DNA from: a virus
Reading direction: 5' to 3' (one strand)
Virus record (IMG/VR): IMGVR_UViG_3300032224_001146
Span: 23,194-87,193 of that record
Length of the DNA stretch: 64,000 nucleotides
Shown here: positions 2,162 through 52,852 of the stretch, in pieces
Position numbering within the stretch: position 1 is the stretch's first letter
How the letters are laid out: every line of letters begins with the position of its first letter
The notes under the pieces: model-generated
Database searches by the model: none
Told to the model about the DNA's origin: nothing
Seen by the model: only the letters and a program-made list of their open reading frames with translations
Program-made: the position numbers and the translations under genes

Positions 2162-3079
2162 ATGCCATTTCCACCAAATAGATATATGGCTTCTCCTCAA
2201 GCAAAAACATTTTTGCTTAGAGAAATTATTACTACAGGCTATCTTTTATCTGGATATCAAAATTCAAGTGTATGGCGTAACGTAAATAGAATGCAACATT
2301 CTACAGATACATCAACAAATCTTGGAGATTTACTTCCTTCAGGTGGAGCTTATTGCGGTGGAATTTGTGGATCAACATATGCATACCTTTTAAGAACTAT
2401 GTCTTCTTTTTGTCCAACTAGCAATGGTGTTTCACAATTACAGATGGTTACAGAAACAGGATCTACAGGACCTACAATGCCATATACAGTTGCACAAACA
2501 GGACAAGGATGCCAGCAAGAAAAATTAAAGGCATGGGTTGTTCCAAATGGAAACAATGCCCTTATGCGTTTTGATTTTACAACTCAAGCATGGCTTTCAT
2601 CAGTTGGATTATCTTATGTTGGTTATGGCGGCGGAGGAAACTCTTCATTCTTTACAGAAACAAAGGGTTGGACATATGAAGATGGAAACGCTTCTATGAA
2701 AATGACATTTGCAACAGAGACTCAGTCTTCTGCATCTCCAGCTGGAGCACACGATCAACAGCATGGTCAATCTTCAAAGCTTACATATGTATATGCAGGT
2801 AATGAAGGATCATATAATGGTGGTTATAACCTTCGCAGATGGAATGTTACAACAGAAACAAATGCTGGAAATATTACAAAGCCTTGTGGAAATACTGGAG
2901 AAGAAAATTTTGATATGGGTCAAGATCATGGTTATATGATGGGCTCATATGATGGAGCACAGAACAATAGATCTTATAGATTAAATTACACCACAGATAG
3001 TGGTTTTGAGGGCGGAGCAACAATGCAGCCCAAGGGCGTAGGTGGCAGAAGTTCTGGCATCGCAGCGTGGAGAGCATAG
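2162..3079 (+). CDS. Putative fibre/receptor-binding protein, Cys- and Gly-containing
   Basis: 305 residues, starting one base after the previous stop. The N-terminal ~60 residues include a helical LLREIITTGYLLSGY and VWRNVNRMQHSTDTSTNLGD; the rest is a repetitive beta-rich region with recurring GG, W, Y and T residues (KGWTYEDGNASMKM, GGYNLRRWNVTTETNAGNIT). The spacing suggests a kelch-like propeller with about five blades, but no clean repeat consensus can be proven by eye. Cysteines cluster around residues 64-85. It lies between a fibre chaperone-like gene and the accessory island, so a host-recognition role is likely but unproven. Confidence 0.5.
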   Translation: MPFPPNRYMASPQAKTFLLREIITTGYLLSGYQNSSVWRNVNRMQHSTDTSTNLGDLLPSGGAYCGGICGSTYAYLLRTMSSFCPTSNGVSQLQMVTETGSTGPTMPYTVAQTGQGCQQEKLKAWVVPNGNNALMRFDFTTQAWLSSVGLSYVGYGGGGNSSFFTETKGWTYEDGNASMKMTFATETQSSASPAGAHDQQHGQSSKLTYVYAGNEGSYNGGYNLRRWNVTTETNAGNITKPCGNTGEENFDMGQDHGYMMGSYDGAQNNRSYRLNYTTDSGFEGGATMQPKGVGGRSSGIAAWRA

Positions 3080-3091
3080 ATAGGAAAATAA

Positions 3092-3826
3092 ATGCGTTAC
3101 ATCAATGACATTGAGTCTGATGTTTCCAATTATACAAAAGAACAAAAAGACATTCTTTTGTATTCCGTAAATAGAAACTGGGGAACCCCAGTATTTAAAA
3201 TGGATAATTTTATTGGAAATGCACAATACTCACCATTTGGTAAGCTAAGACAATTCATGCTGGAACTAAAAACCAGAGAAGATATGATCCTTAAAATGGA
3301 GCATGAAATTGAAAAAACAAAACTTCAAATTGAATTGATTGAAGAATATAAGCAACAGGTATCTTCTCCAGCACAATTAAAGCTACATGATTTGGATATT
3401 AAAGAAAAATATAGAGAGCTGGATAATGTTAAAAATATTTTAACTATGTCTTATGAAGAACGTGACAAGTTTATGATGCTTATTACCAGATTTAATGAAT
3501 CTGAAGAAGGTATGTTGCCAGATGGTAGAAGAGTCATTGATATTATTGGTAATTATGAAGAGGAAGAACGACTAGAAGCAGAACTTTGGATTACCCGCCT
3601 GGGACAACAAGCAGCAAATGATCTTTTATTCTATGGTCATGTTGGCGTTGGAAATATGGAAGCAATTGGCCAGTTGCCAGAAAAAGATCAGATGAAAGCA
3701 ATTGAATGTGCGGTAGAAAAAACAATTACTACTGGACATAAATTAGAAATTGCACATAAGGTTGTTTCAGAAAAATTAGCTTTAGAAGCTACAGATTCTT
3801 CAGACTGGGAAGAACTAGAAGTATAA
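3092..3826 (+). CDS. Unknown protein with central coiled coil
   Basis: 244 residues. Residues ~55-130 are strongly helical with heptad-like Leu/Ile/Met spacing and dense charge (EDMILKMEHEIEKTKLQIEL, IKEKYRELDNVKNIL), a likely coiled coil. A second acidic helical part contains NYEEEERLEAELWI. The region around residues 180-215 (LFYGHVGVGNMEAIGQL) is more globular. There is no signal peptide or membrane segment. It is translationally coupled to the next gene (TAATG at 3824-3828) and precedes the U32-like/methyltransferase fusion. I do not recognise a family; assembly or adaptor functions are possible. Confidence 0.55.
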   Translation: MRYINDIESDVSNYTKEQKDILLYSVNRNWGTPVFKMDNFIGNAQYSPFGKLRQFMLELKTREDMILKMEHEIEKTKLQIELIEEYKQQVSSPAQLKLHDLDIKEKYRELDNVKNILTMSYEERDKFMMLITRFNESEEGMLPDGRRVIDIIGNYEEEERLEAELWITRLGQQAANDLLFYGHVGVGNMEAIGQLPEKDQMKAIECAVEKTITTGHKLEIAHKVVSEKLALEATDSSDWEELEV

Positions 3827-4390: not shown

Positions 4391-6034
4391 ATGTTTAGCG
4401 TTCCTCTTAACCCAAAGTTAAAAGAAAATCAATTAAACGAATTTATAGTATTCTTAAAAGAATACAAATCGTTTATTTATGATTTTTATTTTACCTGCAG
4501 AGTTGAACCATTTACTCAAGATGCCATGGGAGATGTTTTTCAAGGCGGAAAAGAAGATCACGAGTACCTTGTCTCCCTTGCCCTTTATATTCAAAATGAA
4601 ACTGGAGTAACTGCTTCAGCAGTATTTAATAATATTGAGGTAAGACCATCGCAGCAGAACCTTGATTTATTTATAGAGTCTTTTAGGCCAGTATATGAAT
4701 CTGGAATTAGATCAGCAACAATTCCCCACACACACTGGATGGCAACAGGACAAATCAAAAAAGCTTTTCCAGAGTTATTTGTAAAAAATACTATCCTTCG
4801 AAATGTATCAGAACCAAGAGATATAGAAAAATTGGCAAAAGCTGGATTTGATTATATTAACCTTGACCGTGATCTTATGAGGGATCATGAAAAACTAAAA
4901 AGATTTAAAAAGGCTAAACAACAATTTGGAGTAAAGCTATCTTTGCTAGCAAATGAAAGTTGTTATGGCGGATGTATTATGATGGATGAACATTATCAGT
5001 TTAATAATACCCGCACAGATGGGCCTCAATATTTTAATGATCCAATAAGCCGTGTATCTTGCCCAAAATGGGACCATGAGGATTTTGCGGTATCATTGAA
5101 AACAGCTAATTTTCCGCCCTGGCGTGAAGATTGGCAGGAGTTTATTGATGACCTTGGGATTGATGTTATTAAAATGCATGGGAGGGAGTCCCATACAAGG
5201 CTTAAAGAAACTATGGATATAATCAGGAGGTATGCCAATAATGAAGAAATTCTATTTGACAGCTTTAATGATTTTATTGAAGAAACTAATATGGTTGATA
5301 AGCCGATTACCATCTGGCGTAATAAGATCAAGAATTGTAAATTTGATTGCTGGGATTGTGGCTATTGCGACAAAATAATGGCTGCTAAATATGGCAACCA
5401 TATTAATCCAAAAGTTGCTATGGTTGCACAAGAGTTGGTTAATTCTGTAAATGCACCAATTGAAATTAATATTCCTGGGTTAACATCAACTAGAGTTCAA
5501 TCTTTAATTAATGGATTAGCAAAAAATTCATCTAAATATTTAGAAATTGGTTCTTATCAAGGTGCTACAGCAGCTAGTGCTTTATTGGGAAATAATCTAT
5601 CAGCGTACTTTGTAGATACGTGGCAGGAAGCCCCACAAGCAGTTAGAGATGGTTGGGAGACACCAATCACTAATACACTAGAAGAATTTAAAAATAATAT
5701 TAAGCCTTACACGGGTAATAATAAAATATTTATATCTAACTCTGATATGTTTAAAGTTAATGTTTCTAAGATTTCAGACGTTGATCTTTTCTTTTATGAT
5801 GGCCCTCATGATTTTGAGTCCACAAAAAATGCGGTCAAGTATTACTCACCTTCATTTGCTAATCAATCTATTTTAATATTTGATGATGCAAATTGGACGG
5901 AAGTTGTGCAGGGTGCCCATAAGGGAATAGTTGAATCTGGATTAACAATATTGTATAGTAAGAAGATATTAAATAGCTTAGAATCCGACACCGACTGGTG
6001 GAATGGACTTTATATAGTAGTTGTGGAAAAGTAA
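4391..6034 (+). CDS. U32-peptidase-like domain fused to class I SAM methyltransferase
   Basis: 547 residues with two domains. Residues ~1-340 look like a U32 (YhbU/UbiU-like) TIM-barrel domain: strands such as AGFDYINLDRDLMRDHEKLK, then LSLLANESCYGGC and IKMHGRES. Cysteines C191, C195 and C224, followed by C316, C320, C323 and C326, could hold an iron-sulphur cluster as known for UbiU/UbiV and relatives. Residues ~360-547 form a methyltransferase-24-type fold: SAM motif LEIGSYQG (384-391), FYDGPHDFES (468-477) and LIFDDANW (495-502). The start follows TAGGATA. No secretion signal. It may modify a virion protein, a glycan or a host component; the substrate is unknown. I know of no established phage family with this fusion. 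Confidence 0.65.
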   Translation: MFSVPLNPKLKENQLNEFIVFLKEYKSFIYDFYFTCRVEPFTQDAMGDVFQGGKEDHEYLVSLALYIQNETGVTASAVFNNIEVRPSQQNLDLFIESFRPVYESGIRSATIPHTHWMATGQIKKAFPELFVKNTILRNVSEPRDIEKLAKAGFDYINLDRDLMRDHEKLKRFKKAKQQFGVKLSLLANESCYGGCIMMDEHYQFNNTRTDGPQYFNDPISRVSCPKWDHEDFAVSLKTANFPPWREDWQEFIDDLGIDVIKMHGRESHTRLKETMDIIRRYANNEEILFDSFNDFIEETNMVDKPITIWRNKIKNCKFDCWDCGYCDKIMAAKYGNHINPKVAMVAQELVNSVNAPIEINIPGLTSTRVQSLINGLAKNSSKYLEIGSYQGATAASALLGNNLSAYFVDTWQEAPQAVRDGWETPITNTLEEFKNNIKPYTGNNKIFISNSDMFKVNVSKISDVDLFFYDGPHDFESTKNAVKYYSPSFANQSILIFDDANWTEVVQGAHKGIVESGLTILYSKKILNSLESDTDWWNGLYIVVVEK

Positions 6035-6035
6035 T

Positions 6036-6950
6036 ATGCCAAGTTTATCTATTTTATTTCAAGAATGGTACTACATTCTTATGTTGGGAACCGTGCTGGT
6101 TCTTTCATATTATGCTAAAAAATATGATGTGTTTCAACCTTTGTATTTATCAATTTCAAGAATATTTAAATCTAAAAGAGCGGTCATTGCAATAACTTCA
6201 GCAATTGCTGGGGTACTTCCAATTAATGGTCGTGTAGTTATTTCAGCGGGAGTTTTAAATACTGTAGCACCGCAAGATAAAGAAAAACGCAAGAAATATG
6301 CCGTAATTGATTATTTGGCTACTCATCATTTTTATTTTTGGTCCCCATTAGAGCAAACGGTAATTATTCCAATGGCTGCACTTCATATTAGTTATTGGAC
6401 ATTCCTAGGACGTACCTGGGCTATTTTGGCTACAGCAATTACATGTGCCCTTTGGTATATTTTTGGAGTACTTAAAGAAGAAGACGTTGAAATAAATTTT
6501 AGGTCAGAACGCAAAAAGCACAATATGGATCCAGCAAAAGAATTTAGAAGCGGATTAAAAACAATGTTGTTTGTCACAGGCCTATTAATGATGGGTAATT
6601 TTGTTGGATATCATCATGAGGCATTTCAACGTATGTTTGATAATGCTCAAAAAACTAGCTTGCTTATAGTGGTTTTAATAGCCTCATTTGCCATCAGTTG
6701 GCTTTTGGGAAGTAGCGAAAAGTTTTCAGGACTTATTGGAATATCTTCAGCAGCATTTGGCCTTCAATATCTTCCAATTCTTTTTGCAGTAAATTGGGCT
6801 GGATACTTTTTGTCCCCAATGCACAAATGTATGCTTCTGGGAAGACAGATTTTTGGGGCCTCATTCAAAGATTACTACAGGGTCTTGGTGGGAGTCGTAT
6901 CAATGGTTATTTTGGTGGGTATAGTCCATACATATACTACAGGGCTTTAG
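6036..6950 (+). CDS. Polytopic membrane protein, possible DUF401-like permease
   Basis: 304 residues from the ATG at 6036 just after the previous stop; an earlier ATG at 6021 lies inside the upstream gene. Six or more hydrophobic segments are visible: near residues 10-28, 45-65 (AVIAITSAIAGVLPINGRVV), 100-140, 178-196, 208-226, 230-255 and 275-300. Polar and charged loops include APQDKEKRKKYAVIDYLATH, with two His before a long hydrophobic stretch. The combination of PINGRVVISAGV with a conserved-looking HH near a membrane segment recalls DUF401-type permeases, but this is weak recall. It is not a holin by size. It is probably an auxiliary inner-membrane transporter or membrane modifier linked to the U32-like gene. 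Confidence 0.55.
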   Translation: MPSLSILFQEWYYILMLGTVLVLSYYAKKYDVFQPLYLSISRIFKSKRAVIAITSAIAGVLPINGRVVISAGVLNTVAPQDKEKRKKYAVIDYLATHHFYFWSPLEQTVIIPMAALHISYWTFLGRTWAILATAITCALWYIFGVLKEEDVEINFRSERKKHNMDPAKEFRSGLKTMLFVTGLLMMGNFVGYHHEAFQRMFDNAQKTSLLIVVLIASFAISWLLGSSEKFSGLIGISSAAFGLQYLPILFAVNWAGYFLSPMHKCMLLGRQIFGASFKDYYRVLVGVVSMVILVGIVHTYTTGL

Positions 6951-7729: not shown

Positions 7730-8707
7730 ATGGCTGTAGCAAATTCAACTACACAAATTTTAGTGCCAGGTCTTGATAAATCAGTTCAAGATAACTTAAA
7801 TGCAGCATTAAATTCAAATACAACACTTGCTGGTGTACTTGCAGCAGCAGGAAACATTGCAATTAAAGTAGTCAAGCCTGTTACAGTCAAATTAGATTCT
7901 ACTCAATATTGGACACGACCAGCAAATACAGTTTCGGCTATTGATGCTATTGTTGTTGGTGCTGGAGGTTCTGGCGGTTGTGGACACTCATCACATTATT
8001 CTGGCGGTGGCGGAGGTGGCGGTCAGGTAATTAGAAGAAATTTAGATATTTCTTCTGTTGCAGTAGGACAATCAATCCTTGTTACAATTGGTTCAGGAGG
8101 AGCTGCAGTTTCTGGTTCAAGTAATACAAATGGTAACAATGGTGGAAATACAACATTAACTTATGGTGCAACAACTATTACTGCTTACGGCGGTGGCGGT
8201 GGCGGAGCTTACGGTAACCATGCACCACAATCACCAGGTGGATCAACTGGCGGTGGAGGTTCAAGAACTCACCACGGTGCAGGCGGTGGCGGTGGCGGAG
8301 CTGGCGGTGCAGGCGGACAAGGCTGGGGACAAAATCAAGAACACTCTTGGAGAATGAGAGCAGGACATGCTTCACATACTCCTGCAACAGATGAAGGTTC
8401 ATCAATGGGTGGAATGGGAATGGGTGGAGATTCATCTGGTTCACAATCTACAACTGGTGGACAAGGTGGAAGAGGACTTTACGGACTTGGCGGAGGTGGC
8501 GGTGGCGGAGGCCGTCATGCAATGGGTGGAGGTTCTAACGGTGGTGGAGCAGGTGGAGCAGGAAATGGTTCTCCTTATGGTTCAGCAGGACAACCTGGAA
8601 TTGATGGTTCAGGTGGCGGAGGCGGAGGTGCTACAGATGGTAGCACTGGAGGTAAGGGCGGCAATGGAACTGTCGTTCTAACATATTGGTTAAAGGAGAG
8701 TGCATAA
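7730..8707 (+). CDS. Glycine-rich tail adhesin (copy 1)
   Basis: 325 residues. Residues 1-85 are a helical/beta attachment part (QILVPGLDKSVQDNLNAALN, WTRPANTVSAIDAIVVG). The rest is dominated by Gly runs separated by short variable His/Ser/Asn/Met loops. This is how polyglycine-II sandwich receptor-binding tips look (the S16 gp38-type adhesins are the known precedent). The closing strand VVLTYWLKES is shared with the copy at 9517. The gene is locally much richer in G than its surroundings because of GGN codons. It starts behind GAGGAG. It is likely the host-range determinant; the loops would contact the receptor. Confidence 0.7.
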   Translation: MAVANSTTQILVPGLDKSVQDNLNAALNSNTTLAGVLAAAGNIAIKVVKPVTVKLDSTQYWTRPANTVSAIDAIVVGAGGSGGCGHSSHYSGGGGGGGQVIRRNLDISSVAVGQSILVTIGSGGAAVSGSSNTNGNNGGNTTLTYGATTITAYGGGGGGAYGNHAPQSPGGSTGGGGSRTHHGAGGGGGGAGGAGGQGWGQNQEHSWRMRAGHASHTPATDEGSSMGGMGMGGDSSGSQSTTGGQGGRGLYGLGGGGGGGGRHAMGGGSNGGGAGGAGNGSPYGSAGQPGIDGSGGGGGGATDGSTGGKGGNGTVVLTYWLKESA

Positions 8708-9516: not shown

Positions 9517-10509
9517 ATGGCAGTTAGCACAACTACAACACAATACGTACTACCAGGATTAGATACAACAATGCAAAATAACATGCAAGTTGCATTGAAT
9601 TCTAATGCAACGTTGGCATCTGTTCTTGCAACAACAGGTGGTGTATCTGGAAAGGTGCTAAAGCCTATAACAGTAAAATACAATACTTCTTCTACTTGGA
9701 CACGCCCAGCTAATACAATGTCTTCAATTGAAGTTATTCTTGTAGGTGGCGGAGGCGGTGGAGGTGGATGTCATTCATCTGGTCACGCAGGCGGTGGCGG
9801 AGGAGGCGGACAGGTAATTCGTCGTTTTATTGATATTTCTTCAGTTCCAGTTGGTCAATCAATTACAGTTAATATTGGAAATGGTGGAACAAACGTTTCT
9901 GGAAATACAAATACAAATGGTGGAGACGGCGGAACTTCATCACTTGTTTATAACGCTGCAACATTAGTACAGGCTGGCGGAGGCGGTGGCGGTGGAGCTT
10001 ATGGACAACCTGGTCGTCAAGGTGTTGGTGGATCTTCTGGTGGCGGTGGAGGACAATCTTCACACTCAGGTGCTGGCGGTGGCGGAGGAGCAGGCGGAGC
10101 TGGAGATCATGCTCGTTGCATGATGATTCACCACTCATGGTATACATATGGTGGACAAGGAACACACAATGTTTCAGGATTAAATGGCGGAGAAGGTGCA
10201 TCAATGGGTGGTTCTGGAGAATATAAAGGTTCTTCATCAGATCAAAATTGCTGCGGTGGAAATGGCGGATCAGGTCTTTGGGGCTTCGGCGGTGGCGGAG
10301 GCGGTGGCGGAGACTGGGGAGTTGGTGTAGGTTCCAATGGTGGAGGTTCTGGTGGATCTAGAGTTTCATATTCAGTTTATGGAAGCTCAGGTTCAGCTGG
10401 AATTGATGGTACTGGCGGAGGCGGCGGAGGCTGCGAAGAGGGTGCAACATCTGGAGTTGGTGGCAAGGGAACCTGTTTAATTACTTACTTCTTAAAAGAG
10501 TCGGTGTAA
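9517..10509 (+). CDS. Glycine-rich tail adhesin (copy 2)
   Basis: 330 residues, collinear with the protein at 7730: the same opening (QYVLPGLDTTMQNNMQVALN), the same WTRPANTMSSIEVILVGGGG entry to the Gly-rich part, QVIRRFIDISSVPVGQSITV, and the same closing LITYFLKESV. The Gly-run framework is conserved while the intervening loops (for example HARCMMIHHSWYTYGG) differ. That is what one expects of a duplicated adhesin whose receptor loops have diverged. Cysteines occur in several loops here and not in copy 1, so disulphides are possible. It probably forms a polyglycine-II tip. Confidence 0.7.
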   Translation: MAVSTTTTQYVLPGLDTTMQNNMQVALNSNATLASVLATTGGVSGKVLKPITVKYNTSSTWTRPANTMSSIEVILVGGGGGGGGCHSSGHAGGGGGGGQVIRRFIDISSVPVGQSITVNIGNGGTNVSGNTNTNGGDGGTSSLVYNAATLVQAGGGGGGGAYGQPGRQGVGGSSGGGGGQSSHSGAGGGGGAGGAGDHARCMMIHHSWYTYGGQGTHNVSGLNGGEGASMGGSGEYKGSSSDQNCCGGNGGSGLWGFGGGGGGGGDWGVGVGSNGGGSGGSRVSYSVYGSSGSAGIDGTGGGGGGCEEGATSGVGGKGTCLITYFLKESV

Positions 10510-12032: not shown

Positions 12033-14321
12033 ATGGCTTACAAACAGTATGGAAATGTTCTTAATACCTTAAATATTAAACAAAAAAATATATTTAACTG
12101 GAATTTAAATTATTATGATAAATATGGAAGAATTAATTTTAACTCACAAAGCTCTCACACATATATTACAAGATCTTTATCTGTAGCAACTTCATCTGGA
12201 ACTTTGCAGGGATATCTTCCATCCATAAAAAATATTGATTATAATACAGCATCCACAATTTTAAGAAATTCTGGTTTTACACCTTCGCCAACATATATTT
12301 ATACAAACAATACTGCATTTCAAACATATAATGCATTAGGTGGTTATGTTACGACACAGTCACCAGCACCTTCAGCATCTTCTGGACAACTTGTGCAATT
12401 TGGTAGTTCCATTCAAATGGATGTAATTTTATACACATCTGTTCCAATTGTAACTACAACTGTTCCAAATGCTCCATTATGGTCTAACGCAACATCTGGA
12501 GATTCTTCAGTCACTCTAACATTTGTGGCACCAGCAAACGGTGGTTCAGCTATAACTAGATATGAATATTCAATTACAAATGGTGCTACATGGATTTCTG
12601 TAGGATTGCCAACAAATAGTACATTTACTGTTTCAGGACTTGTAAATAATGTTGCATATACTTTTTATATTAGAGCAGTAAACTCAATTGGCAATTCAGC
12701 ATCAAGTGCTGGTGTAACTAAATCTCCAACTGCAGGTTCTATTGGTGGAACTGTAACAACTCCAGGTGCTCCTACATTTACAACATCATTCGTTACAAAT
12801 ACATCATTTAGAATCACACTCACAGCTCCATCAAATAATGGTGGTGCTGAAATTACAAGATATCAACATTCATTAGATAACGGTTTGACATGGACAAATG
12901 ATTTTACAAATACTGGACCAATTACAGTTTCTGCACTTAACCCAGGACAAACATATCAAGTTTCTTTACGTGCAGTAAACTCAGCTGGTAGTGGTGCGGC
13001 AGCAGCAACACAATCCTTGACTACAACACAAATCGTTCCAGATCTAGTAGGACTTGCACTTAATACAGCAAAAACAGTTATTACGTCTTCTGGATATGTT
13101 TTTGGAACTGGAACAGAAAGTGCATCTAATAACCAATATTATTTAGATTATTCTGGTGGACTTGTAAGTGCACAATCTCCAACAGCAGGAGGGTCTTTAT
13201 CTGGTGGAGGAACCATTAGACTTGACTACACAGTTTATTTGGCTGCACCTTCATATGGAACAATTCCAAATGTAATTGGACTTAATTATTCTGAAGCTAT
13301 TACAAGAATTCAGCAAGCAGGTTATTCAAATATTACACAAGTTACAACATCTGATATTAACAAAACTTATGGGCAAATTTATGCACAAAACCCAGCAGCA
13401 GGAACAGCATCATTGGTTAACCAGGTAGTTACAATAACCTATTCAAACTATACTGGATCATTAGCCATTCCAACAAATACAGTTGCTCCAAGTGTTACTG
13501 GAGATAATCTATATGTTGGAGCTAAATTTAATGTTGTTCCAGGAACTTGGACAGATAGTCCAACATCATATAATTATCAATGGGTTGATTCAAATGGAAA
13601 CAATTTTATCAATGCTACGTCATCAAGTTACATCGCTAATTCAACTGCAATTTCTAGATCAATTGGAATAAAGTTAGCAGCAACAAATGCAGCTGGTACA
13701 TCTTCGTATGTAACTTCTTCAAACTTTTTAGGACCAATTAAAATTCTTCAAAAGCCAACAGATATTCAGTACGCAGCAACAAACCCAAGATCAGCTACAT
13801 CAATATCAGTTACTTGGTCTGGAGGAGATTCTCCATTTTACTTTGTTGGTATATATAAACCAGGGACATCATCTTACGTATCAACCAAAATTGTAACAAC
13901 TCAATCAACAACATTTACTGGTTTAACTGCAGCAAATAATTATTATATTCAGATATTTGGAAACAATAATAATGAATATACAGCTGATTCATATACAAGT
14001 GCAGTTTTATCAACAACATTTTCTGCACAGCCTTTTATTCCAGTTTTAAATACAGCAGCTAAATCTGGAAATAATATTAATTTTACTGCAACTCGTGGAG
14101 CAAATAATGCAAAAGTTAGAGTTCAATTAGAAAATACAGGCGGCGGATTAGTTGCTGGTACAACCTACCAAGATTTTGGTTTAGATTTAACACAATCATC
14201 AATATCAAGTTCATTTAATATTAATGGTATTTCTTCTGGATCTTATAAGATAGTTGCATATGGATACAATGAAGATTATGGAATATCTGCATCTGGCTCT
14301 TCCTTGGATATTACGATATAA
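12033..14321 (+). CDS. Tail fibre with PASTA-like and fibronectin-III domains
   Basis: 762 residues. Domain order by eye: PASTA-like at ~60-134 (YLPSIKNIDYNTASTILRNS, later VTTQSPAPSAS); FN3 at ~144-232 and ~244-332 (GGSAITRYEYSITNGATWI and GGAEITRYQHSLDNGLTW, each closing with YxxxLRAVNSxG or its equivalent); PASTA-like at ~334-402 (IVPDLVGLALNTAKTVITSS, AQSPTAGGS) and ~409-471 (IPNVIGLNYSEAITRIQQAG, AQNPAAG); then Ig/FN3-like beta modules to the end. PASTA modules in Ser/Thr kinases and PBPs of Gram-positives bind muropeptide, so this fibre probably touches cell-wall peptidoglycan. It starts after GGAATAGGAATG. Confidence 0.7.
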   Translation: MAYKQYGNVLNTLNIKQKNIFNWNLNYYDKYGRINFNSQSSHTYITRSLSVATSSGTLQGYLPSIKNIDYNTASTILRNSGFTPSPTYIYTNNTAFQTYNALGGYVTTQSPAPSASSGQLVQFGSSIQMDVILYTSVPIVTTTVPNAPLWSNATSGDSSVTLTFVAPANGGSAITRYEYSITNGATWISVGLPTNSTFTVSGLVNNVAYTFYIRAVNSIGNSASSAGVTKSPTAGSIGGTVTTPGAPTFTTSFVTNTSFRITLTAPSNNGGAEITRYQHSLDNGLTWTNDFTNTGPITVSALNPGQTYQVSLRAVNSAGSGAAAATQSLTTTQIVPDLVGLALNTAKTVITSSGYVFGTGTESASNNQYYLDYSGGLVSAQSPTAGGSLSGGGTIRLDYTVYLAAPSYGTIPNVIGLNYSEAITRIQQAGYSNITQVTTSDINKTYGQIYAQNPAAGTASLVNQVVTITYSNYTGSLAIPTNTVAPSVTGDNLYVGAKFNVVPGTWTDSPTSYNYQWVDSNGNNFINATSSSYIANSTAISRSIGIKLAATNAAGTSSYVTSSNFLGPIKILQKPTDIQYAATNPRSATSISVTWSGGDSPFYFVGIYKPGTSSYVSTKIVTTQSTTFTGLTAANNYYIQIFGNNNNEYTADSYTSAVLSTTFSAQPFIPVLNTAAKSGNNINFTATRGANNAKVRVQLENTGGGLVAGTTYQDFGLDLTQSSISSSFNINGISSGSYKIVAYGYNEDYGISASGSSLDITI

Positions 14322-16139: not shown

Positions 16140-16475
16140 ATGGATATTAAAAGAACCAACTCCCAGTTTATTGAAGAAACAACCCTAGGGCTATATGTTT
16201 GGGAAATGCCAGACGGACGCTGGGTGGGAGATGATGATGGTAACTTTATGACTATCCAAGCTTTTAAAGGTGATAAAGTAAAAATGGATATGCTTGCAAG
16301 AGCAGTTCGTGGATACGGCATTGATGAGGGTCAGCCTACATTTTTGTCGGGACGAAGAAAAGTTACAGACGAAGAATTTGAAGAACAGCAGACAAGATTA
16401 AAGTGGGGCCTAGTACCAGATAAATATGATATGGGTGTCTATAAAGAAGATAAGGCGAAGGGTTTGATTGTATGA
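16140..16475 (+). CDS. Unknown protein upstream of portal
   Basis: 111 residues, probably translated from a leaderless message. Acidic and aromatic N-terminal half (LGLYVWEMPDGRWVGDDDGN) that looks like a small beta domain, then MLARAVRGYGIDEGQPTFLS and a charged C-terminal end (DEEFEEQQTRLKWGLVPDKY). I do not recognise a Pfam family, but genes with the MPDGRWVGDDDGN-type motif next to portal genes are familiar from actinophages (recall only). The last bases ATGA overlap the portal start, so the two are coupled. A packaging or portal-accessory role is an inference. Confidence 0.6.
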   Translation: MDIKRTNSQFIEETTLGLYVWEMPDGRWVGDDDGNFMTIQAFKGDKVKMDMLARAVRGYGIDEGQPTFLSGRRKVTDEEFEEQQTRLKWGLVPDKYDMGVYKEDKAKGLIV

Positions 16476-18067
16476 CAAAAGTTGTTTATGAAGAGGATAG
16501 CGAGATCATTGATAATGATGTTCGTGTAAGCACATATGCTGACATGGTTAGATTTAGCAAAGCTCAAGAACAAACAACAACAGATGCCTTTGCAGTTGAT
16601 GCAGAAGAGCTAAAGAAATTCTCAGGCATGTCTCCAGCATTTAGAAGAAAGCTTGGAAGAGAATTATCAAAAGCTTTTGTAGGACAAGATGGATCACAAA
16701 CACAACAAAGCCTTCTTGCTCAGGCGATCACTGGATATGCACTATTAGATGTAATTGAGCCAACATACAATATGGAATATCTCTCAAGACTTTATGAAAT
16801 TTCAACATATAACTATTCTGCTTGTAATGCTAAGACATCAAATATTGTTGGCCTTGGACATTCATTTATGGAAACAAGAAAAACTAACGACGCAATTGAT
16901 GGAATTACAGATGAAAAGCAATTAGATCGTGCTCGTAGAAAATTAACAAAATTAAAACAAGACTTAGATGATTGGTTGGAATCTTGCAATGATGAAGATA
17001 CTTTTACAGAGACTCTTATTAAAGTATGGACAGACTATGAAGCTACTGGTAACGGGTACCTCGAAGTCGGTAGAACGGTTCGTGGAGACATCGGATACTT
17101 AGGACATATCCCATCAAAGACAATGCGTGTACGCCGCCTTAGAGACGGTTTTATACAGCTTCTTTATGGCAAGATTGTATACTTTAGAAATTATGGAGAT
17201 CAAGAAACTCCTAATCCAGTACTGGGTGGAAATGACAGACCAAACGAAATTATCCATCTTAAGAAGTACACACCAGTAAATCAGTATTATGGTGTCCCAG
17301 ATATTATTGCAGCACAAAATGCTTTGGCTGGAAATGAATTTGCGGCTAAATATAACTTAGATTATTTTGAAAATAAGGCGGTCCCAAGATATATTATTAC
17401 AGCAAAGGGAGCAAAGCTTTCTCCAGAGTCAGAGCGTAAATTGCTTGAATTTTTCCAGGTTGGATTAAAGGGTAAGAACCATCGTTCACTTTATATTCCA
17501 CTTCCAGCAGATACCCCAGAGTCTAAGGTTGAATTTAAGATGGAGCCTATTGAGGCAGGGGTTCAGGAAGGCTCATTTGATAAATATCGCAAATCAAATA
17601 GAGATGAAATCCTCCTTGCTCACCGTGTCCCAATTAATAAAATTGGAACTCCAGAAGGTGTAAACCTAGCAGTTGCTCGTGATGCGGATAAGACATTTAA
17701 AGAGCAGGTTTGCCGTCCATCACAGATGAGATTAGAAAAGAAACTAAATAGAATTATTGAAGAAAAGACAGATGCCCTAGTTATTAAGTTTAATGAATTG
17801 AGCTTAACAGATGAAGATACTCAGTCTAAAATTGATGAAAGATACTTGCGTATGCAGGTTATTGTTCCTAATGAAGTTCGTATTCGCAAGGGTATGATTC
17901 CTATTGAAGGTGGAGACAAAGTAGTTCAACTTAAGCCAGATCAAGCAGCCGAACAAACTGCACAAGCTGGAAATACAAGACAAAGAACCCAACAAAGAGA
18001 TGCTAATTCCCCAGACAAATCTGGAGAAGGTAGAAATGCTCAGGGTGACGGAAGACAAACTCCGTAA
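16472..18067 (+). CDS. Portal protein (PBSX/HK97-type)
   Basis: 531 residues. It forms the dodecameric ring at the capsid vertex through which DNA passes. Recognisable portal segments: YLSRLYEISTYNYSACNAKT near residue 105, DYEATGNGYLEVGRTVRGD around 190, VYFRNYGDQ and NEIIHLKKYTPVNQYYGVPD around 250-275, then AAQNALAGNEFAAKYNLDYF, and GTPEGVNLAVARDADKTFKE near 405. This order is that of PBSX-family phage portals. The C-terminus is Gln/Asp-rich and probably disordered. It is coupled to the previous gene by ATGA overlap and sits just upstream of protease and capsid, the expected head-gene order. Confidence 0.9.
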   Translation: MTKVVYEEDSEIIDNDVRVSTYADMVRFSKAQEQTTTDAFAVDAEELKKFSGMSPAFRRKLGRELSKAFVGQDGSQTQQSLLAQAITGYALLDVIEPTYNMEYLSRLYEISTYNYSACNAKTSNIVGLGHSFMETRKTNDAIDGITDEKQLDRARRKLTKLKQDLDDWLESCNDEDTFTETLIKVWTDYEATGNGYLEVGRTVRGDIGYLGHIPSKTMRVRRLRDGFIQLLYGKIVYFRNYGDQETPNPVLGGNDRPNEIIHLKKYTPVNQYYGVPDIIAAQNALAGNEFAAKYNLDYFENKAVPRYIITAKGAKLSPESERKLLEFFQVGLKGKNHRSLYIPLPADTPESKVEFKMEPIEAGVQEGSFDKYRKSNRDEILLAHRVPINKIGTPEGVNLAVARDADKTFKEQVCRPSQMRLEKKLNRIIEEKTDALVIKFNELSLTDEDTQSKIDERYLRMQVIVPNEVRIRKGMIPIEGGDKVVQLKPDQAAEQTAQAGNTRQRTQQRDANSPDKSGEGRNAQGDGRQTP

Positions 18068-22458: not shown

Positions 22459-23242
22459 TAGCATTGCATCCCTAGATACAGCCTCACGAGGCTTAGAACG
22501 CCTTATGGTGGGCTCTAAGCAAAAGGGTGTCATAGATGATGGCGGGACAGTTCAAAAAATTTCTGCTGGCCTTTATTACCAAGCAAGAGTAATGGGTGCA
22601 ATGGTTACAGAAGAATGTATTGCTACTGGTTACACAAATAAAATATTTAATAAGATTAAATTTGATCTAGAAGAATTTATAGATATGCAAGCTAGATCAA
22701 GACCAAAGGCATTTCATCACGTATATGAGTGGGGTCAAACTGGTAAAAACACAGCAAGACTTTTTGATATTCATAGATCTGGCCAGTCAGGTTTTGATTT
22801 TGTTTTAGGATATGATTTTAAATTATCAAACACACCAGTTCCAGCAAAAGGAAAAAGTCCAAAAACTTATTTCTTTAAAAACAAAGCCTTTGTAATGGAA
22901 AATGGTCAACAAGTTACAGTAAGACCAAAAAATCCAGATACAAGCTTAACATTTAATATGGGCGGACAATACATAACTTTGGAACCTGGCAAGGCAGTAA
23001 AAATAAATAATCCAGGCGGCAAAGAAGTAAAGTTATCTTTTGCTGGAGCATATACTAGATTTATGAATGGTCCTGTTGAAAATTCAATTGCAATGTCTGG
23101 AGCAAAAGATTCATTTAATTTAGTTGTTTCAAGATCAATGAAGTTGCCAGGAATTGTAAAAGCTAAGTCTTATTCTTATAATCCAGCATCTATTAAAAAT
23201 GCAGCTCATGCTGCTGTTCAATTGAATGGGAGAAACATGTGA
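22427..23242 (+). CDS. Neck/tail-completion region protein, unknown
   Basis: 271 residues from a GTG at 22427 inside the previous gene; no better start is seen nearby. Helical N-terminal half (DTASRGLERLMVGSKQKGVI, EEFIDMQARSRPKAFHHVYE), then beta-rich stretches (ITLEPGKAVKINNPGGKEVK). Charged throughout and with no membrane segment. It lies between the stopper and tail-terminator positions, where the HK97 gp10-type minor capsid/tail-completion genes usually sit. I do not recognise it by sequence. Confidence 0.5.
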   Translation: MQDRKTKQLINSIASLDTASRGLERLMVGSKQKGVIDDGGTVQKISAGLYYQARVMGAMVTEECIATGYTNKIFNKIKFDLEEFIDMQARSRPKAFHHVYEWGQTGKNTARLFDIHRSGQSGFDFVLGYDFKLSNTPVPAKGKSPKTYFFKNKAFVMENGQQVTVRPKNPDTSLTFNMGGQYITLEPGKAVKINNPGGKEVKLSFAGAYTRFMNGPVENSIAMSGAKDSFNLVVSRSMKLPGIVKAKSYSYNPASIKNAAHAAVQLNGRNM

Positions 23243-49438: not shown

Positions 49439-49581
49439 TGACAATATCATGCAATAAAGAAGGATGTGCCTTTGAGCTGGACCTTGACGGTCAAGTAACC
49501 TGTGTATCTTGTGGTGCCATGGATGACGATAAGCAAACAATTCTCTCAGAACACTTTGAAAATCAGGTAGACTTTGAATAA
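49438..49581 (+). CDS. Tiny zinc-ribbon protein
   Basis: 47 residues, below the usual size cut-off. MTISCNKEGCAFELDLDGQV, then CVSCGAMDDD: CNKEGC and CVSC make four Cys in ribbon spacing (C5, C10, C22, C25). AGGAGGG lies directly upstream, and the ATG overlaps the preceding TAA. Its end overlaps the DnaE start by 8 bases, so it is translationally coupled with the polymerase. Probably a protein-interaction or nucleic-acid adaptor. Confidence 0.55.
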   Translation: MTISCNKEGCAFELDLDGQVTCVSCGAMDDDKQTILSEHFENQVDFE

Positions 49582-52500
49582 AGACTTTACGCACTTACAT
49601 GTACATTCCTATTACTCATTAATGGATGGATATAACTCTCCAAAAGAATTGATGCAGGCTGCAAAAGATAATGGGCAAACAGCAATTGCAATTACAGACC
49701 ACGGAACTTTGTCATCACATAGAGATTTACAAATAGCAGCAAAAGAACTTGGGTTAAAGCCAATCCTTGGTGTTGAAGCATACATTTCTCCAACAGATAG
49801 ATTTGACCGCTCATCTAAAACAGACAAAACAATTCAGGCATACAATCACATTATTCTTCTTGCAAAGAATCAAACTGGGTTAAATAATATTCACAAGCTG
49901 CAGGAACTTGCTTGGACAGAAGGCTTTTATCATAAACCACGTATTGACCGTGAAATTCTTGCAGAAAATAAAGAAGGAATTATTATTCTTTCTGGATGTC
50001 TTAATGGTTTAATTTCAAAAGCAATTGAAAAAGAAGATGACCAGCAAGCACGTATGATGCTTAAATGGTTTAAGCAAACCTTCGGCGAAGATTTTTATGT
50101 TGAGGTACAACCTGATAATCCAGTAGAAGTTAACAATAAACTATTACAACTTGCAGATGAAGCTGGAATTAAATCAGTTGCTACTGCTGATGCACATTTC
50201 TCTAAAGAAAGTGAGCGGTCCGCAGAAGAAGCAATGTTAATCCTATCTACTTCTCCGAAGGTAAATAAGGATCTTGATTTTGATAAGTCACGTACCATGA
50301 CTGACATGTTTGAAAGATTTAATTATCTTTGGCCTGACCGCCGCATTTCATTCGAACACCTTGATTTGTTTATTATGAGCAGGGAAGAATTGGCGGCAAG
50401 TTTTGCCAGCAAGGGAATTACCAGAACAGACATTTTGGACAATACTAACCTAATTGCTAATCAAGTGGAAGAATATAATTTTAATCAGGGACTAGACCTT
50501 CTGCCTGTTCCAAAGACCAATGCTGATGACACACTTAAGGAGCTGGCTCTTAAGGGCTTAGAACGCCTTGGGAAGGCTAAAGAAGCCCAGTATATGGAGC
50601 GGCTACAGGAAGAATTGGGCGTAATTGCCTCAAAAAATTTTGCCTCTTATTTTTTAATTGTTTCAGATATGATTAACTGGGCTAAAGATAATGGCATCCG
50701 TGTAGGTCCAGGACGTGGATCTGCTGCAGGCTCACTGGTCTGCTACGCTTTAGGTATCACTGAGGTTGACCCAATCAAGTACGACCTACTTTTCTTCCGC
50801 TTCATTAATCCAGAGCGTAACGACTTTCCAGATATTGATACGGACTTTGAAGACCGTCGTCGCAAGGAAGTTAAAGAATATCTTAAGAAGCGGTTCAAAC
50901 ACGTAGCATCTATTTCAACCTTTACTTACTTTAAAGATAAGGGTGCAATTCGTGATGCTGCTCGTGTATTTATGATTCCATTGCAGGAAGTTAATCGTGC
51001 ACTAAAGTCAGTAGATACATTTGAAGACTATGTTGATTCACCTAACACTAGAGAATTTCGTAACAAGTATCCAGAAGTAGAATGGCTTGCTAACAATTGG
51101 CGAGGAAGAATTCGAAGCACTGGAGTTCACGCAGCAGGTGTTGTTGTAGCAAAAGATGACCTACGCAACTATGCACCAATTGAAACTCGTGAAGACCCAC
51201 AAGATAAAGTTTCTGGTCGTATTCCAGTAGTTGGATACGATATGGATCAAGTTGCAGATGTTGGTTTGATTAAGCTAGATGCACTTGGACTTAAAGCACT
51301 ATCAATCATTTCGGATACATTGGCTTCAATTAAAGACCGTTACGATAAAGATATTGTCCTTTCAGAAATTGCACTAGATGATAGAAAGGTGTATAGAGAT
51401 CTTAGCGATGGATATACCAAGGGTGTTTTTCAGGCGGAAGCAACTCCATACACCAACCTCCTAATTAAAATGGGAGTAGATAACTTTGAAGACCTTGCAG
51501 CATCAAATGCTTTGGTTCGTCCAGGAGCAATGAATACTGTAGGGGCTTCTTACATCAATCGTAAGAATGGTAAAGAAATGATTGAGTTTGTTCACCCAAT
51601 CATGCAACCATTTACAAAAAATACTTACGGCGTAATTATTTATCAGGAACAGGTTATGCAGGCTTGCGTATACTTAGGCGGTATGTCATGGTCTGAAGCT
51701 GATAAGGTTCGTAAGATTATTGGTAAGAAGAAAGATGCAAAAGAATTTGATCAGTTTAAAGATCAGTTTGTTACTGGTGCATCTCAACATATTACAAAAG
51801 AGCAGGCTGAGCATTTGTGGCATGACTTTGAAGCACATGCTGGATACTCATTTAACCGCTCACATGCTGTTGCTTACTCTATGGTGTCATATTGGACTGC
51901 ATGGCTTAAGCACTATTATCCACTAGAGTTTATGTTCGCAATCTTAAAGAATGAACAATCTATTGATTCAAGAACAGAATATCTAATTGAGAGTAAGAGA
52001 CTTGGATTAAAAGTTCTTCTCCCACACATTAATGAATCTGAGATTGATTTCTCATTACAAGCACAGGCTATGCGGTTTGGCTTGGCAGATATCAAATATA
52101 TTTCTGATAACATCTCTGCAAAAATTATTAAGGAAAGGCCATATTTAAGTTATGAAGACTTCACTAAAAAAGCGTCTGCTAAAGGCAGCGGGATTAACTC
52201 TAGGGCTATTTCTGCTCTCAACGCTATTGGGGCAGCGGCTTTTAAAGACAATGCAAGAACAGGATTAGAACAGGATAACTTTTATGAGTACCTTGGTATT
52301 CCACAGTTTAATCTTTTAGATCTTCCACCATGGATTAAAGCACAAGCTCGTCCAATTGAAGAGTTTGAAGACCTAGGATCATTTGTAATGTTTGGAATGG
52401 TTAAGGCAATTAAACGTGGAACTGGCTGGGCTAGAGTTGAACTTGTTGATGAGACTGGATCTGTTGGCCTATTTCATAATGAGCAAACACAAATTGAAAT

Positions 52501-52852
52501 TGGTCAGATGTACTTCATTTTAGTTGGAGACAATCGTATTGCAAGATATGTCAAGGTTGTTGATATTAAACCAGATTCAGATGATGTATTTGTAGACTAT
52601 TTATATCGTGCAAGTTATGATAGTATACCTGATGAACAGTACATGGTTCTTAACTTTACTCCTTATAAGACTAAGGCGGGAAAGACGATGGCACACGTAG
52701 TGTTAACAAATAAAGATAGAGAATTGACAAGAGCAATTGCATTCCCAACTATGTATAAGTTAGCTTTAGCTAAGATGAGAGAAGGAATGGTTTGCGATAT
52801 TACACTTTCTAAATTAGAAGATGGAACTTTATTGATAAAGGAAATAAGATGA
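49574..52852 (+). CDS. dnaE: C-family DNA polymerase III alpha subunit (DnaE)
   Basis: 1092 residues from TTG 49574. PHP domain at the start: HLHVHSYYSLMDG and AIAITDHGTLSS. Polymerase core: GPGRGSAAGSLVCYALGITE (palm), PDIDTDF at 419-425 (two catalytic Asp, D422 and D424), GVFQAEATPYT and INRKNGKEMIEFVHPIM in the fingers. The OB-like C-terminal region contains SFVMFGMVKAIKRGTGWARV. The DNA replicase makes the leading and lagging strands; a separate proofreading exonuclease gene is not seen nearby, although the PHP domain itself may proofread. Phage-encoded DnaE is known but uncommon. Confidence 0.93.
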   Translation: MNKDFTHLHVHSYYSLMDGYNSPKELMQAAKDNGQTAIAITDHGTLSSHRDLQIAAKELGLKPILGVEAYISPTDRFDRSSKTDKTIQAYNHIILLAKNQTGLNNIHKLQELAWTEGFYHKPRIDREILAENKEGIIILSGCLNGLISKAIEKEDDQQARMMLKWFKQTFGEDFYVEVQPDNPVEVNNKLLQLADEAGIKSVATADAHFSKESERSAEEAMLILSTSPKVNKDLDFDKSRTMTDMFERFNYLWPDRRISFEHLDLFIMSREELAASFASKGITRTDILDNTNLIANQVEEYNFNQGLDLLPVPKTNADDTLKELALKGLERLGKAKEAQYMERLQEELGVIASKNFASYFLIVSDMINWAKDNGIRVGPGRGSAAGSLVCYALGITEVDPIKYDLLFFRFINPERNDFPDIDTDFEDRRRKEVKEYLKKRFKHVASISTFTYFKDKGAIRDAARVFMIPLQEVNRALKSVDTFEDYVDSPNTREFRNKYPEVEWLANNWRGRIRSTGVHAAGVVVAKDDLRNYAPIETREDPQDKVSGRIPVVGYDMDQVADVGLIKLDALGLKALSIISDTLASIKDRYDKDIVLSEIALDDRKVYRDLSDGYTKGVFQAEATPYTNLLIKMGVDNFEDLAASNALVRPGAMNTVGASYINRKNGKEMIEFVHPIMQPFTKNTYGVIIYQEQVMQACVYLGGMSWSEADKVRKIIGKKKDAKEFDQFKDQFVTGASQHITKEQAEHLWHDFEAHAGYSFNRSHAVAYSMVSYWTAWLKHYYPLEFMFAILKNEQSIDSRTEYLIESKRLGLKVLLPHINESEIDFSLQAQAMRFGLADIKYISDNISAKIIKERPYLSYEDFTKKASAKGSGINSRAISALNAIGAAAFKDNARTGLEQDNFYEYLGIPQFNLLDLPPWIKAQARPIEEFEDLGSFVMFGMVKAIKRGTGWARVELVDETGSVGLFHNEQTQIEIGQMYFILVGDNRIARYVKVVDIKPDSDDVFVDYLYRASYDSIPDEQYMVLNFTPYKTKAGKTMAHVVLTNKDRELTRAIAFPTMYKLALAKMREGMVCDITLSKLEDGTLLIKEIR

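Follow-up and report, generated by a model that had tools for sequence, protein, structure and literature searches.

A phage protein joining a cysteine-rich barrel, remotely related to the U32 family, to an O-methyltransferase-like domain: its gene module, phage lineages and possible chemistry

The gene considered here, termed g5, lies on the plus strand of a 64,000-nucleotide stretch of viral DNA (the window; positions 23,194 to 87,193 of the IMG/VR record IMGVR_UViG_3300032224_001146) and encodes a protein in which a cysteine-rich barrel region is fused to a C-terminal methyltransferase domain. Its open reading frame starts with ATG and is uninterrupted (Table 1). A preliminary description, made from the sequence alone, had recorded a 547-residue gene with seven named cysteines, preceded on the same strand by two unknown genes and followed by a gene for a polytopic membrane protein. 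In accordance with it, all seven cysteines are present, the two genes (g3 and g4) lie upstream of g5 on the same strand with the adhesin-like gene g2 before them, and the downstream gene g6 encodes a membrane protein.

Table 1. Position of genes, domains and motifs around the fusion gene g5 in the window.
Feature	Position	Strand	Basis
g2, adhesin/tail-fibre-like, 305 residues, phrog_1417, T4-GC 351 kin	2162..3079	+	phrog_1417, E 8e-48
g3, helical coiled-coil protein, 244 residues, phrog_1409, T4-GC 353 kin	3092..3826	+	phrog_1409, E 3e-33
g4, T4-GC 352 kin, 186 residues	3826..4386	+	iterated profile
g5, fusion protein, phrog_1458/T4-GC 354, 547 residues	4391..6034	+	open reading frame, profile and tblastn matches
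(beta/alpha)8 barrel region of g5, predicted, residues 1-335, remote U32 kin	4391..5395	+	AlphaFold2 model, homology chain
First putative iron-sulfur site: C191, C195, C224	4961..5062	+	84/84 invariance; alignment with Chloroflexota, G140 and RB69 proteins
IKMHGR motif, residues 260-265	5168..5185	+	resembles FKIEGR/LKIEGR of RlhA/TrhP
Second putative iron-sulfur site: C316-x3-C320-x2-C323-x2-C326	5336..5368	+	84/84 invariance, alignment
S-adenosylmethionine-dependent O-methyltransferase-like domain, residues 363-547	5477..6031	+	Pfam, Foldseek, invariant residues
g6, polytopic membrane protein, DUF401 permease-like, 304 residues	6036..6950	+	PF04165

As a sequence, the fusion is already known as a conserved hypothetical protein of cyanophages. 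Residues 46-547 match the profile of phrog_1458 (E 1e-166), and phrog_36869 is a shorter, N-terminal-only version of this type of protein. A tblastn scan of 50,697 phage records returned homologues in 123, all of them from Synechococcus or Prochlorococcus phages; at least 80% of g5 is covered in 121 of these, and identities among the matches listed are ~42-44%. The homologues of P-SSM4, P-HM2 and S-ShM2 bear the cluster label T4-GC 354 and the product name 'hypothetical protein'. Those of P-SSM4 (PSSM4_035) and S-ShM2 (SShM2_051) comprise the same two domains at full length with the same cysteines, and T4-GC 351, 352 and 353 are found nearby, as are their counterparts in the window. On the other hand, the T4-GC 354 proteins are only ~44% identical to g5, the phages that carry them are T4-like while that of the window is not, and the order of the genes corresponding to g3 and g4 is swapped. 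Among viral contigs, 289 relatives of g5 were found and a wider scan yielded at least 572 candidate stretches; in the retained set (the best 80 from each), the two-domain fusion is the rule and partial matches sit at contig ends. The two domains thus occur in one chain, as the preliminary description had supposed. No function for phrog_1458 or T4-GC 354 is proposed in the annotations seen or the literature searched, and a literature search that left most subscription papers outside its reach yielded no account of a barrel-methyltransferase fusion. The earlier statement that such a phage fusion was undescribed is therefore right with regard to function, which is unassigned in every record seen, and wrong with regard to sequence, which is on record as phrog_1458 and T4-GC 354; the architecture had been read correctly, novelty of the sequence was overstated and the membrane neighbour was overvalued. 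Two copies in metagenome bins labelled 'Euryarchaeota' (L165) and 'Dehalococcoidia' (L166) were rejected as cellular, since both probably sit on phage contigs; the former contig carries the fusion protein and the latter the whole module described below in addition to the fusion.

An AlphaFold2 model of g5, built with 31 aligned homologues (mean predicted local distance difference test score (pLDDT) 80.9, predicted template modelling score 0.60), predicts eight strands alternating with helices in the N-terminal part (residues 2-5, 29-35, 75-78, 108-111, 130-133, 155-157, 182-187 and 259-262) and a Rossmann-like domain in the C-terminal part. Confidence is low in the cysteine loops (191-197, 204-230 and 317-322), as expected where a model is built without metal. 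Neither of the outcomes that the preliminary description had named as refuting was observed: a triosephosphate isomerase (TIM) barrel is predicted, the alignment shows clustered, invariant cysteines, and the two domains occur together in phages. For the barrel, Foldseek matched TIM barrels such as MetF in the PDB, and a Pfam scan of the N-terminal part gave a mere trace of a TIM-barrel family. Once close relatives were set aside, one of the best barrel matches among viral models was the 'Peptidase' of Escherichia phage OLB35 (E 2e-9, target template modelling score 0.71), which pointed to protein p050 of phage RB69.

Characterised U32 proteins act in the hydroxylation of pyrimidine C5 or of quinone rings (PMC6599085, PMC6747719). 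Profile comparisons place the barrel of g5 in the U32 superfamily as a remote member, through intermediates only, because A3, a profile built from the N-terminal domains of the phage proteins, reaches PF01136 (U32) by two routes. One leads through L182, a bacterial protein of genome G140. With A3 as query it scores E 1e-11 in the search of whole Chloroflexota genomes (as L182/L188) and E 4e-13 when the calculation is made for 177,635 sequences. In turn, L182 yields E 1.4e-15 with PF01136, E 1.2e-12 with PDB entry 5d88 (a 'predicted protease of the collagenase family') and, weakly, E 8e-4 with TrhP. The other leads through RB69 p050, the family of which aligns with A3 over ~308 columns (E 6e-6, as compared with 0.15 to 0.54 for five column-shuffled controls) and which itself reaches E 7e-11 against PF01136. 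A3 reported no hit among 36 decoys, which were reversed or shuffled sequences. The cellular search with this profile, covering 301 Chloroflexota genomes and one archaeal phylum, identified chromosomal relatives in five of the Chloroflexota genomes (E ~1e-27 to 1e-30). These proteins of ~410 residues are the closest cellular relatives of the barrel that were found; they possess the cysteine layout of g5 plus one further cysteine and differ in being single-domain proteins. At two of their five chromosomal loci, the barrel gene is directly preceded by a separate O-methyltransferase gene (Methyltransf_2). RB69 p050, annotated as 'peptidase' (phrog_5757; Mosigvirus, Kanagawavirus, Thanatos), resembles g5 in its barrel and in a similar two-part cysteine layout, with NExC and FKVSGR motifs in register with g5; unlike g5 it matches PF01136, lacks a methyltransferase and is encoded in a DNA-modification cluster.

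All 84 aligned homologues retain each of the cysteines C191, C195, C224, C316, C320, C323 and C326, so that a chance cluster can be dismissed. In a four-group alignment, a fourth cysteine joins the first set in the Chloroflexota and RB69 proteins; that of RB69 falls near H201 of g5, which makes H201 a candidate fourth ligand of the first putative iron-sulfur (Fe-S) site. The second set, on the C-terminal side of the barrel, is common to the Chloroflexota and G140 proteins, with a variant form in RB69. UbiU and UbiV each hold one cluster per chain by means of four cysteines (PMC6747719), while the layout of the subgroup with CX3CX2CX2C suggests a protein built for two. Further residues invariant in the barrel are found in KNTIL, RD.MRD, NExC and K.HGRE. 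As in the U32 proteins TrhP, RlhA and UbiU/UbiV, a cysteine-rich loop follows a central strand of the predicted TIM barrel, and IKMHGR corresponds to the FKxxGR-type motif that is present in TrhP, RlhA and UbiU and absent from UbiV. Residues 316-323 (CX3CX2C) were also considered as a radical S-adenosylmethionine (SAM) motif; this reading was set aside, since matches to radical SAM families were absent and the motif follows the barrel as a whole, not its first strand.

For the C-terminal domain, the SAM methyltransferase named in the preliminary description was confirmed by a match of residues 384-499 to Methyltransf_24 (PF13578; E 1.9e-10, 42 bits vs. a cut-off of 26.3). E385, G387 and G391 of the SAM motif LEIGSYQG as well as D409 are invariant in profile A1. 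D470, D498, D499 and N501 are invariant too; the three aspartates constitute a candidate metal triad, placed by motif and fold as in MycF/COMT-type enzymes. SAM-binding residues and acidic triad are conserved down to ~26% identity. The methyltransferases that Foldseek returned from the PDB include MycF, which is an Mg-dependent O-methyltransferase, COMT-like enzymes and TrmR (YrrM) of Bacillus subtilis, the tRNA 5-hydroxyuridine-34 (ho5U34) O-methyltransferase (PDB 5zw3). TrmR and the COMT-like enzymes share with g5 the fold, the SAM motif and probably the metal site. TrmR differs in being a separate protein with weak sequence similarity to g5. It was the sole PDB sequence match of profile A6, derived from 25 C-terminal domains (E 1.5e-4), a link that appears fragile and alignment-dependent; as a firm assignment TrmR was dropped, because the result varies with the profile used. 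In tRNA, the U32 proteins TrhP1 and TrhP2 contribute to the hydroxylation of U34, TrmR adds a methyl group to the resulting hydroxyl, and trhP1, trhP2 and trmR form one operon in B. subtilis (PMC6599085). Sakai et al. noted fusions of the other tRNA hydroxylase, TrhO (YceA), with TrmR (PMC6599085), and a hydroxylase and an O-methyltransferase in one chain therefore have a precedent.

The fusion gene belongs to a four-gene module. Of 127 loci in which the sequence extends 3 kb or more ahead of the fusion gene, 126 contain g2, g3 and g4 upstream of it, as detected with iterated profiles. The modification island within an adhesin cassette that had been suggested in the preliminary description draws support from this module; support for a quinone or glycan target in particular, as also suggested there, did not emerge. 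Between one and three copies of g2 are present per locus, with two or three related copies in tandem at many loci (e.g., L050, L053, L068 and L079), and T4-GC 351, labelled 'sericin 1 precursor-like', is where tblastn matches to g2 fall in L083 and L084. Copies of g3 invariably share the strand of the fusion; g3 occurs in 120 phage records, all of cyanophages, as compared with 123 for the fusion. Its AlphaFold2 model (pLDDT 90) consists of helices throughout, and the best match in a structural search was no better than E 0.65. For g4, no Pfam family was matched, and its profile matches have zero overlap with those of g3. The order is g2-g3-g4-g5 in the window and g2-g4-g3-g5 in the marine phages examined. 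In S-ShM2 (L196), three genes for 2-oxoglutarate (2OG)-Fe(II) oxygenases lie, among others, between T4-GC 353 and 354, and in S-SM1 (L168) the module is absent from the corresponding region downstream of the tail fibres, where 2OG-Fe(II) oxygenases are found. Oxygen-dependent hydroxylases thus appear in the module neighbourhood either beside T4-GC 351-354 or in their place.

The downstream gene g6, the ATG of which lies one base past the stop of g5, matches PF04165 (DUF401) with 46.7 bits vs. a cut-off of 24 over part of the model. DUF401 follows the fusion in 57 of 67 sampled loci, a set biased to relatives of the window. Among the phage records, a relative of g6 was present in nine, and in S-CAM4 it is ~57 kb away from the fusion. 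The gene is only loosely linked to the fusion, and the functional pairing of g5 with the membrane protein that had been proposed earlier was downgraded on these grounds.

The module occurs in phages of different descent. The window encodes a DnaE-like DNA polymerase III (49574-52852) that is 57.7% identical to that of Streptomyces phage Wakanda and a portal protein (16472-18067) with 58% identity to those of the Streptomyces phages BillNye and relatives; G+C content is ~36%, and psbA was not found in the 87-kb record. Among 45 relative contigs, ten carry the Streptomyces-phage-type polymerase, six carry T4 Gp23 and none carries both. A T4-like cyanophage was excluded as the source of the window, given that its polymerase and portal have their closest matches in large Streptomyces phages and that the contigs with this polymerase lack Gp23; the window probably stems from a freshwater actinobacterial phage. 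As judged from these marker proteins, two phage lineages that are not related to each other carry the module, namely T4-like cyanophages and the relatives of Streptomyces phages to which the window belongs. In the tree of fusion proteins, the Gp23-containing phages L053 and L058 join the clade of the window (support 1.0) and not the marine cyanophages. Taken together with the split between Gp23 and polymerase, this points to a probable transfer of the module between unrelated phages whose hosts presumably differ, a history that favours a substrate that either travels with the module or is present in all cells.

By analogy with the enzymes discussed above, we tentatively propose that the fusion is a bifunctional enzyme in which O2-free hydroxylation of an aromatic ring by the barrel is followed by O-methylation, a reading to which we give slightly less than an even chance. 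The barrel, a distant and probably two-cluster U32 protein, would attach a hydroxyl to the ring in the absence of O2, perhaps with the use of prephenate, and the metal-dependent O-methyltransferase domain would cap the new hydroxyl. The product would be a methoxy group (+30 Da), or a hydroxyl (+16 Da) if the first step alone runs. The clusters, hydroxylation and the order of the steps are inferred, and the scheme follows the logic by which TrhP and then TrmR act on the wobble uridine of tRNA, here combined in a single chain. Through this analysis, a widespread phage protein gains a chemistry that can be tested, a delimited module of four genes and two unrelated lineages for such tests.

A number of observations weigh against this proposal. 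PF01136 gave no match in g5, in the 12 members of A3 or anywhere in the 87-kb record, and A3 yielded no significant direct match to UbiU, UbiV or RlhA of Escherichia coli; TrhP was the best among the E. coli U32 proteins with E 0.003. Canonical U32 membership was ruled out by these direct tests. U32 proteins contain a single 4Fe-4S motif CX6CX15CX3/4C, in UbiU CX6CX16CX38C (PMC6747719), and the spacing in g5, CX3CX28C plus CX3CX2CX2C, is unlike this canonical four-cysteine motif. E162 of TrhP, eight residues before the first cysteine, is essential (PMC6599085); its position is occupied by Leu183 in g5, in which E189 is found two residues before C191. The U32/UbiU-like barrel of the preliminary description accordingly survives as a relationship via intermediates and fails with regard to Pfam U32, canonical cysteine spacing and the glutamate of TrhP; the fused methyltransferase is a further difference from TrhP, RlhA and UbiU/UbiV. 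In the C-terminal domain, DGPHD is replaced by DGEVG in distant cyanophages, so that residues after the metal-site aspartate vary. TrmR was not found with the full-length profile A1 or with the single g5 sequence, and the cyanophage-only profile A7 reached it with E 0.14. Chorismate mutase makes prephenate, which the U32 hydroxylases TrhP and RlhA need. No prephenate-making gene, chorismate mutase included, was detected in the 87-kb record; the hosts are expected to make prephenate.

As the target of such a hydroxylase-methyltransferase, we consider a module protein as likely as RNA, because the enzyme travels with an adhesin, g3 and g4; the two head the list of candidates, though each on its own is rather unlikely. 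In the former case, an aromatic residue of a virion protein, g2 or g3/g4, would be modified, e.g., to a methoxylated tyrosine, and adsorption or stability would be tuned. The four genes stay together in 126 of the 127 loci, g3 and g5 are found in near-equal numbers of phage records, and a module that crosses intact between T4-like cyanophages and Streptomyces-phage-like freshwater phages, presumably with different hosts, is expected to bring its own substrate; yet co-transcription alone can keep genes together, the fusion of S-ShM2 is ~6 kb away from g3, we know of no U32-type enzyme that hydroxylates a protein, and proteomic evidence for such a modification was not found. The narrower version, in which the module's own O2-free hydroxylase-methyltransferase methoxylates the adhesin or a partner on an aromatic residue, is quite unlikely; if it were true, this would be, to our knowledge, the first U32-type enzyme to act on a protein and the first single-chain methoxylase of its type. 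In the case of RNA, the fusion would form 5-methoxyuridine or a related base in tRNA (or rRNA) of the host or the phage and thereby adjust decoding during infection. Relatives of both domains serve a single pathway in B. subtilis, TrhP1/TrhP2 and then TrmR (PMC6599085), the methyltransferase domain resembles TrmR in structure and weakly in sequence, and RNA is available in every host. Nevertheless, the link to TrmR depends on the alignment, no RNA-binding domain was found, the fusion gene is located among structural genes, and the two tRNA genes of the window, Met-CAT and Arg-TCT, do not belong to those for which 5-methoxyuridine at position 34 has been reported.

Phage DNA or a nucleotide, with a pyrimidine hydroxylated and then capped for protection from nucleases, is an improbable target. 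Such a role is suggested by RB69 p050, the nearest phage relative of the barrel with a characterised context, since p050 and its orthologues reside in clusters for arabinosyl-5-hydroxycytosine DNA (PMC13390438), but the module adjoins tail-fibre genes and not genes of nucleotide metabolism, and neither a glycosyltransferase nor a thymidylate synthase homologue was seen beside it. Doubtful as well, though less so than DNA, is that the fusion acts on a small molecule or surface glycan or that the barrel is a structural Fe-S domain devoid of hydroxylase activity. Sugars and natural products are frequent substrates of Methyltransf_24 and MycF-like enzymes, the catalytic glutamate of TrhP is absent and a permease-like gene follows many freshwater copies; the permease is, however, absent from most relatives, and the invariant KNTIL, RD.MRD, NExC and K.HGRE point to an active site.

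With regard to DNA hydroxylation, the U32 genes of two further phages deserve mention. In Shewanella phage Thanatos-2 (L172:5001-6391) and Enterobacter phage Entb_45 (L192:2894-4302), both T4-like, a U32 gene overlaps by four bases with a following gene for chorismate mutase (PF01817; E 8e-8 and 2e-10, respectively), and the pair is situated near a thymidylate synthase homologue. The gene next to p050 in RB69, p049, is not recognisable as chorismate mutase. The authors of a study on DNA modification in Thanatos state that they can offer no hypothesis for the cytosine hydroxyl (PMC12838424), and in another paper the thymidylate synthase homologue is given credit for it (PMC13390438). A candidate source of this hydroxyl in such phages is the U32-mutase pair. 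The probable two-cluster U32 branch outlined here, found in cyanophages, in dehalogenating Chloroflexota and in T-even phages whose DNA is arabinosylated, would bear on target choice among U32 proteins and on how some T4-like phages hydroxylate cytosine. In Chloroflexota (L186-L191), two-motif barrel genes are located beside reductive-dehalogenase-like genes, and one is adjacent to a gene for DAHP synthase.

Downstream of the module, the translations reveal two glycine-rich adhesin-like proteins (window positions 7730-8707 and 9517-10509) and a long repeat protein (12033-14321) with a PASTA/fibronectin-like appearance.

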